DNA of 33,125 bases, taken from the NCBI GenBank assembly GCA_029287615.1, contig JARFQV010000180.1:1-33125 (forward strand), written 5' to 3'. A program made the position numbers and the translations under genes. This document shows positions 9,808-28,496 of the stretch, in pieces (position 1 is the stretch's first letter; each line of letters opens with the position of its first letter). Source of the stretch: Pseudomonadota bacterium (lineage in GTDB: Bacteria > Pseudomonadota > Gammaproteobacteria > UBA9214). Below the pieces are notes generated by a model that ran no database searches, had not been told where the DNA came from, and saw nothing but the letters and a program-made list of their open reading frames with translations.

Positions 9808-9903
9808 AGTGGTCCTGTATGTCGGAGAGAGTAGGGACAGGGGTAGGGTGCGGCGCCTGTCAGTATCGCCCTCCGCGACACGGTCAAGTGGGCCAGGCGT
9901 ACC

Positions 9904-10100
9904 TGTACCCGGGCTGCAGGCCGGTCTCCGGACTCGCGAGTGGATGGCTCCGGTGTTTCGTCTTCCCGCGCTGTCGCGCAGTGACGTCGTGAAACACCTT
10001 GTGCTCGCTTACCGTTGCGGGGGCAGTGCCGGCATTGCCGCAGGATATGTGGCGCACCGGCTTCCCGTTTCATCCCGGCGCAGATACCACCGGGACACCT
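9904..10100 (-). ncRNA. Cobalamin (B12) riboswitch upstream of btuB
   Basis: Read on the minus strand, this leader has the conserved blocks of the cobalamin riboswitch in order: a GGTG-type opening, ACGGGAAGCCGGTGCG (GGGAA-N3-GGTG pattern), ACTGCCCCCGCAACGGTA, and the B12-box variant GAGTCCGGAGACCGGCC. The roughly 200-base span is usual. It lies about 125 bases upstream of the btuB ATG and downstream of a sigma70-like promoter, so it should lower btuB-tonB-pduO expression when adenosylcobalamin is abundant. No clear T-tailed terminator follows, which favours translational control. Confidence 0.93.
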
Positions 10101-10123
10101 GAAGCTGTGGTAAAGAGCCGACG

Positions 10124-27075: not shown

Positions 27076-27753
27076 ATGTCGCGTTACTGGTTGTGGCAAC
27101 TGCTGGCCGTGATGTTTATGGGGCTGGCAGGGTATGGTGCATGGAGAATCTACGATCTGGGAAAGTTGCACGGGGCCGTGGAACTGGAAGCCCTCAGGCG
27201 TGAACATGCTGATCTGCTCCGGCACGCGAACGATTTGGAAAAAAGCAAAAGGGAGTTGCGCAGGCGTTATATCATGCTGGAGCGAAGCGGTCAGATTGAC
27301 CAGCAGGCAAACCTTGAGATCCGGCAGGGGTATGGCAGCCTGCAGGAGGAGTTGCAGTCGGTTCGGGAAGAACTGGAATTTTACCGTGGTATTGTATCAC
27401 CCGGTGATGTACCTCCCGGGCTGCGTATCCACCGCTTCGAACTATCGCCACTGCAGGAAGGGGGGGGGCTGAGCTACGAACTCATATTGATCCAGGTCAA
27501 GAAAAATGATCGTCCGATCAGTGGCACCATTACTATGGCGATCAATGGCCTGCAGGATGGAAAACCCGCGAAGCTCGACCTCGCAGACGTAACGGATCCA
27601 CAAACCGGGCAACTGAAATTCAAATTTCGCTATTTTCAGAAGATCAGGGGGCAGTTACAGCTCCCGCCGGATTTCAGGCCACTTCAGGTAGAACTGGCCG
27701 TGGATCCGGTGGGGAAAAACAACCGGCAGGAGATTAACCGAACATTTGAGTGA
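27076..27753 (+). CDS. DUF6776-type membrane-anchored coiled-coil protein
   Basis: Predicted single-pass inner-membrane protein of 225 residues. An N-terminal helix (LWQLLAVMFMGLAGYGAWRIYDLG, about 6-29) is followed by a long coiled coil (about 32-105, HADLLRHANDLEKSKRELRRRYIMLERSGQIDQQ then LQEELQSVREELEFYRGIV) and a compact C-terminal domain (LRIHRFELSPLQEGGGLSYELILIQVKKNDRPISGTI). This arrangement and its place between argC and bactofilin match the DUF6776 family of gammaproteobacteria, of unknown function; pairing with bactofilin hints at envelope or cell-shape work. It ends 13 bases before the MITE-like element, which separates it from bactofilin. Confidence 0.85.
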   Translation: MSRYWLWQLLAVMFMGLAGYGAWRIYDLGKLHGAVELEALRREHADLLRHANDLEKSKRELRRRYIMLERSGQIDQQANLEIRQGYGSLQEELQSVREELEFYRGIVSPGDVPPGLRIHRFELSPLQEGGGLSYELILIQVKKNDRPISGTITMAINGLQDGKPAKLDLADVTDPQTGQLKFKFRYFQKIRGQLQLPPDFRPLQVELAVDPVGKNNRQEINRTFE

Positions 27754-27766
27754 CGAGTCTGTAGTA

Positions 27767-28053
27767 GGGCCTGTTAACACTACGCAAATCGCCGCGTTGC
27801 CGCCTGCAATCAGGCCAGGCACCAACAGTAGGCGCTTTAGGCGAGGCGCGAGGAGAGAAGTTTAGTCATGCTAAATGAGCGACGAGTAACGCCGCATGGC
27901 CTGATTGCAGGCGCAACCCGAAGGGACGGGGCCATTTTTCCGCAATTCTGCGTTAGCACTCGCTTGTGTAGCACAACTACACGGCACTCGCGCTGCCTTG
28001 TCTTGCGAAAAAATGACCACCGTCGCGACGATTTGCGTAGTGTTAACAGGCCC
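27767..28053. mobile_element. 287-bp MITE-like element with 25-bp perfect terminal inverted repeats
   Basis: The ends are exact inverted copies: GGGCCTGTTAACACTACGC... (27767-27791) and its reverse complement (28029-28053), 25 of 25 bases. Each end is flanked by TA (27765-27766 and 28054-28055), as expected for the TA target duplication of IS630/Tc1/mariner-type transposition. Inside is a second inverted pair, GCCTGCAATCAGGCCA (27802-27817) and TGGCCTGATTGCAGGC (27897-27912), and small hairpins (TTTAG-N5-CTAAA near 27871; GTGTAG-N5-CTACAC near 27970). No credible ORF is present; the 62-residue track ORF across it is not protein-like. It splits the otherwise conserved DUF6776-bactofilin gene pair and stops directly before the AGGAG of bactofilin. 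The parent transposase is not in the window. Confidence 0.85.
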
Positions 28054-28067
28054 TAAGGAGAGGTAGC

Positions 28068-28496
28068 ATGTTTGGACGCAAAAGGCACAGAAATGTGAAG
28101 GTAGACACCATCATCGGGGGCAACACGCGCCTGAAGGGCGATGTGAGCTTCAGTGGTGGCCTGCATGTCGACGGGATCATCCAGGGCGATGTGATTGCCC
28201 GGGAGGACCCCTCTGCGTTGACCCTCAGTCAATGCGGCAGGATCGAGGGTAATATACGCGTGGAACGGGTGACCCTGAACGGGACCGTCATCGGAGATGT
28301 TACGGCCACTGAATGCATCCAGTTGATGGCGCATGCCCGGGTTACCGGTAATGTGCACTACAGACTGCTGGAGATGGCAATGGGTGCGGAGGTGAACGGG
28401 ATCATACTGCATCAGGATCAGGGTGAACGGCAAGAAGACGAACAGACAGCACAACTGGCAGGGGTGCAGCCGGTTATGGCGGTGGATAATTCTTGA
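28068..28496 (+). CDS. Bactofilin (DUF583 cytoskeletal protein)
   Basis: Predicted polymerising beta-helix cytoskeletal protein of 142 residues. After a short basic N terminus ([26 protein letters not shown]) comes the repeated beta-solenoid pattern: [80 protein letters not shown], with the hydrophobic/Gly rhythm of bactofilins. The tail is polar and unordered. AGGAG lies seven bases before the ATG, directly beside the TA flank of the MITE-like element. Family members scaffold peptidoglycan enzymes and shape cells; an M23 peptidase gene is about 2 kb downstream, though on the other strand. Confidence 0.92.

Follow-up and report, generated by a model that had tools for sequence, protein, structure and literature searches.

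The common view of MITEs is that they are decayed remnants of a parent insertion sequence (IS). Among the described systems closest to the element reported here, IS427-group elements of Paracoccus measure 832-865 bp, carry two overlapping ORFs, and mostly generate 2-bp duplications (PMC3281130), and the IS5 target is YTAR (PMC10359306). MITEPsy1 of Pseudomonas syringae moves in vivo, with CTAG or YTAA as target (PMC3189936), and MITEAba12 is nearly restricted to Acinetobacter, a single Moraxella genome being the exception (PMC6382973). Neighboring messages are changed through RNase III cleavage of Correia transcripts and, for ERIC, through altered RNase E cleavage (PMC2229807, PMC10969869).

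Here, we analyzed a window of 33,125 nucleotides from a gammaproteobacterial genome, in which an earlier note had described a TA-flanked 287-bp inverted-repeat element. The element was confirmed: 27765-28055 consists of TA, 287 bp, and TA (Table 1). As claimed, the first 25 bp of both ends are identical, TA excluded, and with the TAs counted in, the arms 27765-27796 and 28024-28055 match at 31 of 32 positions. The internal inverted repeats described there are also present, as a nested stem-loop pairing 27801-27820 with 27894-27913 (19/20 matched), and no ORF of 100 aa was found within the element, again as proposed. Its RNA folding energy is predicted at -149.9 kcal/mol, compared to -98.3 +/- 5.3 for shuffles (z = -9.7), and Rfam gave no match above the gathering score over the element. 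Elsewhere in the window, a cobalamin riboswitch (Rfam RF00174, 116 bits) lies at 9902-10117 on the minus strand. We consider it highly probable that this is an IS5-family MITE with IS427-type ends, moved in trans into the gap between the DUF6776 and bactofilin genes; insertion, target, and parent type rest on comparison, while the mobilization in trans is what we infer from them. This agrees with the MITE-like insertion suggested earlier: the element is short, has no transposase gene, carries terminal inverted repeats shared with other copies, is bordered by a TA target duplication, is dispersed in multiple copies, and occupies a site that is empty in relatives.

Table 1 Features of the element and its surroundings, in window coordinates.
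Feature	Position	Strand	Basis or remark
DUF6776 gene, upstream	27076..27753	+	PF20567, E = 3e-43
Left TA, target-site duplication	27765..27766	.	sequence
287-bp non-autonomous element (probable MITE), IS5/IS427-type ends	27767..28053	+	
Left terminal inverted repeat, 25 bp perfect, GGGCCTGTTAACACTACGCAAATCG	27767..27791	+	
Arm 1, long stem-loop with conserved unit AAGGCGCGAGGAG ... CGACGAGYAACGCC	27801..27913	+	
22-bp insert CCAACAGTAGGCGCTTTAGGCG in arm 1, dispersed repeat	27822..27843	+	
Short central hairpin CCC-GAA-GGG, then ACGGG	27917..27930	+	helix 6 of consensus fold
Arm 2, the unit of arm 1 inverted	27930..28018	-	helices 7-11
Right terminal inverted repeat, 25 bp perfect	28029..28053	-	
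Right TA, target-site duplication	28054..28055	.	sequence
AGGAG, probable bactofilin ribosome-binding site	28056..28060	+	sequence; similar AGGAG in element-free relatives
Bactofilin gene, downstream	28068..28496	+	PF04519, E = 5e-24; ATG at 28068

A search of the source genome showed the sequence to be multi-copy rather than single-copy. Six other near-full copies were recovered, seven with the window copy, at 88-97% pairwise identity, along with dozens of isolated ends and shortened derivatives. The 15-bp end TAGGGCCTGTTAACA (≤1 mismatch) occurred 41 times in the 3.84-Mb genome versus 0 times for a reversed control, so that the shared end is not due to chance. Paired ends bound short derivatives of ~51, 59, and 162 bp, and derivatives with both ends kept were seen at C316:707-757, C110:5365-5423, and C151:3332-3493 of this genome. 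Since many copies sit at contig ends, the true copy number is probably higher. The earlier note had also taken the element to be young: the identical ends on which this was based stand, but they say little about age because palindromes can keep their own ends alike, and the window copy shares 96-97% identity with its closest counterparts.

The window element is longer by exactly 22 bases, CCAACAGTAGGCGCTTTAGGCG, located between AGGCA and AGGCG, than copy C344 of the same genome (269 bp) and the aligned elements of other genomes, from which this insert is missing. The insert holds the direct repeat TAGGCG-CTT-TAGGCG and entered the MITE without visible duplication. When ≤2 mismatches are allowed, dispersed copies of the 22-mer occur in 9 of the 13 other genomes that were tested, with differing flanks and in some cases where no MITE was found, and 2-18 separate copies were counted per related genome (G004, G074, G002, G086, and others); viral contigs contained no exact match.

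Next, we evaluated target choice across 95 collected insertions. TA was present on both sides in 65 of them, and the restored target was YTAR in 60 of those 65; for the window copy, the restored tetramer is GTAA, with no stop codon at the insertion. A 4-bp duplication is incompatible with those sites that read TTA before the element and TAG after it. The TA was the stop-codon TA of a long open frame for 35 of the 95 insertions, compared to 265 of 3008 background YTAR sites taken from the same DNA (odds ratio 6.0, p = 3e-13; once sites inside genes are removed, 4.1, p = 9e-9), in a test based on open frames of 110 codons instead of curated genes and with one of the 35 cases, the window itself, being a spurious reverse-strand frame. 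At stop codons, the first element base, G, remakes TAG, and the upstream genes checked end naturally, at profile position 244 of 245 for a triosephosphate isomerase, 86 of 86 for a flagellin, 104 of 104 for a GlmU-like protein, and 451 of 452 for a sugar transporter. Since the stop codons TAA and TAG satisfy YTAR and the first G rebuilds TAG, many insertions spare the upstream gene. Insertions are thus biased toward stop codons, either through targeting or through survival of harmless insertions.

The family was surveyed with a covariance model of one arm, which contains no terminal repeats. It was detected in 62 of the 369 genomes sampled from the class and in 80 of the 399 sampled from the phylum, and it is also found in Acidobacteriota. 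In the phylum survey, one taxonomic family outside the class (f207) was especially rich, with dozens of positive genomes. Only partial matches were obtained from a plasmid collection (Azotobacter, Halomonas, Pseudomonas, and others), and none from a phage collection. Excluding the TAs, full-length relatives mostly fall at 264-266 bp, a second class lies near 292-294, and the family length is about 269 bp across many bacterial families and phyla. Most elements recovered by the model have GGGCCTGTTAACA ends or related ones, GAGCCTGTCTGTGAA being an example. In three genomes (G043, G190, and G297; loci L300, L305, and L310), core and fold are alike and the ends are GAGCCTGTCTGTGAATAAATC or similar; there, the terminal repeats seem to have been exchanged and the core kept.

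The fold of this core is supported by an alignment of 27 elements with a mean column identity of 67%, for which the RNAalifold consensus includes 88 pairs, 62 of them with changes on both sides. Overall, 94.8% of cells were paired, compared to 37-44% when partners were slid and 76% when shuffled, and double changes affected 395 cells versus 112 shuffled. In the window, the covariance model of one arm matches arm 1 at 27819-27932 on the plus strand (E = 3e-15), with compensatory changes in helices 2-5, and also matches arm 2 at 27910-28023 on the minus strand (E = 7e-13). This one-arm model matches most full-length elements twice, on opposite strands and ~91 nt apart, and 184 of 271 columns of the consensus match its own reverse complement. 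Read from these alignments, the element holds one ~134-bp structured unit twice, in opposite orientations, and transcription of either strand would yield one sense copy.

Whether this fold has a function is less straightforward. Palindromes can self-correct by template switching during replication, and a covarying fold could then be functionless, an explanation to which we give an appreciable though clearly less than even chance. Counts of G-U versus A-C, which would reveal the transcribed strand and were made on pairs found in both folding directions, are consistent with it, as they give no clear transcribed strand (26 to 24 in arm 1, 12 to 34 in arm 2, and 33 to 24 in the ends). However, template switching explains neither the conservation of unpaired positions (AAGGC, GAGGAG, CGACGAG, AACGCC, and CCCGAAGGG) nor the near-constant overall length of about 269 bp in different families and phyla, and these two points argue for selection, on the fold as RNA or as DNA. 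Tentatively, and with somewhat more doubt, we propose that the non-coding core may be a functional module kept for the benefit of the element, the ends making stop codons safe landing sites. Such a module would aid assembly for transposition or make insertions near genes harmless.

The type of parent element was examined by scanning for the end in viral contigs and GTDB genomes, where one length screen yielded both MITEs and IS. Autonomous elements with the same ends, TA followed by GGGCCTGTTAACAC, measure 811-823 bp and encode a DUF4096 OrfA and a DDE OrfB. An IMG/VR contig, an acidobacterium, a Nitrospira, and a Pelomonas yielded TA-flanked elements of 814-823 bp that contain transposase ORFs, and the proteins of the IMG/VR element matched DUF4096 (E = 7e-20) and DDE_Tnp_1 (E = 2e-8), with NCBIfam transpos_IS5_3 covering both ORFs. 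One genome, G144, holds both IS copies of 811-814 bp, which end in TAGGGCGTGTTAACACTAAT, and MITEs, which end in TAGGGCCTGTTAACACTATCC, and it ties these ends to an IS5-family transposase together with loci L136/L266, L178, L214, and L167. Loci L178, L214, L167, L266, L267, and L395 cover the IS5-family elements with the same ends in Acidobacteria, Nitrospira, Pelomonas, IMG/VR contigs, and G144, and L218 is a deleted 504-bp form of such an element. With only the ends in common, the window element does not amount to a mere internal deletion of the parent IS.

Within the source genome, an IS remnant at C51:2925 comprises TAGGGCGTGTTAACACTAATGC followed by 30 OrfA codons, 53% identical to the IMG/VR OrfA. 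This remnant of the likely parent IS spans contig 51:2925-3213 (L042 1501-1789) and breaks off at AGAGCCTGCTCAAAAAGTCAGAG..., a sequence that resembles an end of some other element. No intact IS5-type transposase was detected in the source assembly (91.7% complete, 359 contigs) by a DUF4096 and DDE_Tnp_1 search or by a protein search, and no IS with the ends of the MITE was recovered in G297, G190, G233, or G343. Across the class, DUF4096 co-occurred with the MITE only weakly, in 13 of 62 genomes versus 38 of 307 genomes without it, a difference that is not significant (p = 0.10). This weak co-occurrence and the lack of an intact transposase in the assembly count against the favored explanation.

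The earlier note had instead pointed to an IS630/Tc1-like parent. A MITE of the IS630/Tc1-mariner type would account for the TA on both sides, yet the combination of TA with YTAR is equally characteristic of IS5/IS427, all autonomous elements recovered with these ends code for a transposase of the IS5 family, and no IS630 transposase was found at loci with these ends. We therefore regard an IS630/Tc1 origin as very unlikely and the same-end elements as IS5 family, IS427-type. Under the IS5/IS427 reading, an IS427-type transposase acting in trans would recognize the GGGCCTGTTAACAC ends, and insertion would have taken place at a TA in the short DUF6776-bactofilin gap, duplicating the TA and sparing the ribosome-binding site.

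The insertion site is consistent with such an event. The TGA stop of the DUF6776 gene ends 11 bp ahead of the element, and on the other side the AGGAG of bactofilin begins at the base next to the right TA, exactly where the element had been said to end; it is intact after insertion and lies outside the outer stem of the element. About 21 genomes of the same family have the same gene order, argC-DUF6776-bactofilin-erpA, with no element between the two genes, so that the same sequence is not at the same locus in all relatives. The DUF6776-bactofilin gap is ~15-100 bp in element-free relatives, and more distant genomes are alike in this respect. That the sequence would be an ancestral regulatory RNA of the bactofilin operon, with no insertion, can be dismissed as next to impossible, as its strong fold does lie beside the ribosome-binding site but the same gap is empty in all other genomes compared and the element is present at many unrelated loci.

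Effects on bactofilin expression had been proposed through an outward promoter, termination, or transcript folding. No forward promoter or terminator was found in the element, i.e., none acting toward bactofilin, and a single weak terminator-like site points the opposite way. An effect through transcript folding is plausible. The two-armed fold is probably transcribed within the argC-DUF6776-bactofilin-erpA row, and a read-through message with a 290-nt double-stranded structure between genes would be the likeliest effect here. This folded intergenic stretch may be a substrate for RNase III-type cleavage, as in Correia elements.

Taken as a single insertion, the window element is ordinary; it is the conserved two-armed core of the family and the stop-codon bias that merit attention. 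Across many families and at least two phyla, length, covarying fold, and loops are kept although the sequence of the inner repeats varies, and this points to some role for the non-coding core. The stop-codon bias provides a simple testable rule for spreading through gene-dense genomes without damage. For genome annotation, the family accounts for otherwise unlabeled repeats and contig breaks. Searches of the literature, mostly open-access papers and without ISfinder, retrieved no mention of GGGCCTGTTAACA and no account of such MITEs targeting stop codons, and TGTTAACAGGCC appeared there only in two papers on unrelated subjects. As far as we could find, this very widespread MITE family is apparently undescribed.

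Compared to known systems, the autonomous partners resemble the IS427 group in their two ORFs, 2-bp duplication, and short terminal repeats, at 811-823 bp versus 832-865 bp, whereas the window element lacks a transposase and has only its ends in common with that group. MITEPsy1 is likewise an IS5-type MITE but is 100 bp long with GGAAGGTCTGAAAAAGCC ends, a 4-bp duplication, and a narrower distribution, and it is not known to have a two-armed core (PMC3189936). MITEAba12 is similarly non-autonomous, with terminal repeats alone matching its proposed parent IS, but differs in its length of 113 bp, its 9-bp duplications, and its ends (PMC6382973). Finally, Correia/NEMIS and ERIC are, like the element described here, small palindromic elements whose transcripts fold; they differ from it in ends and size, and the message processing documented for them may have a counterpart at this locus.
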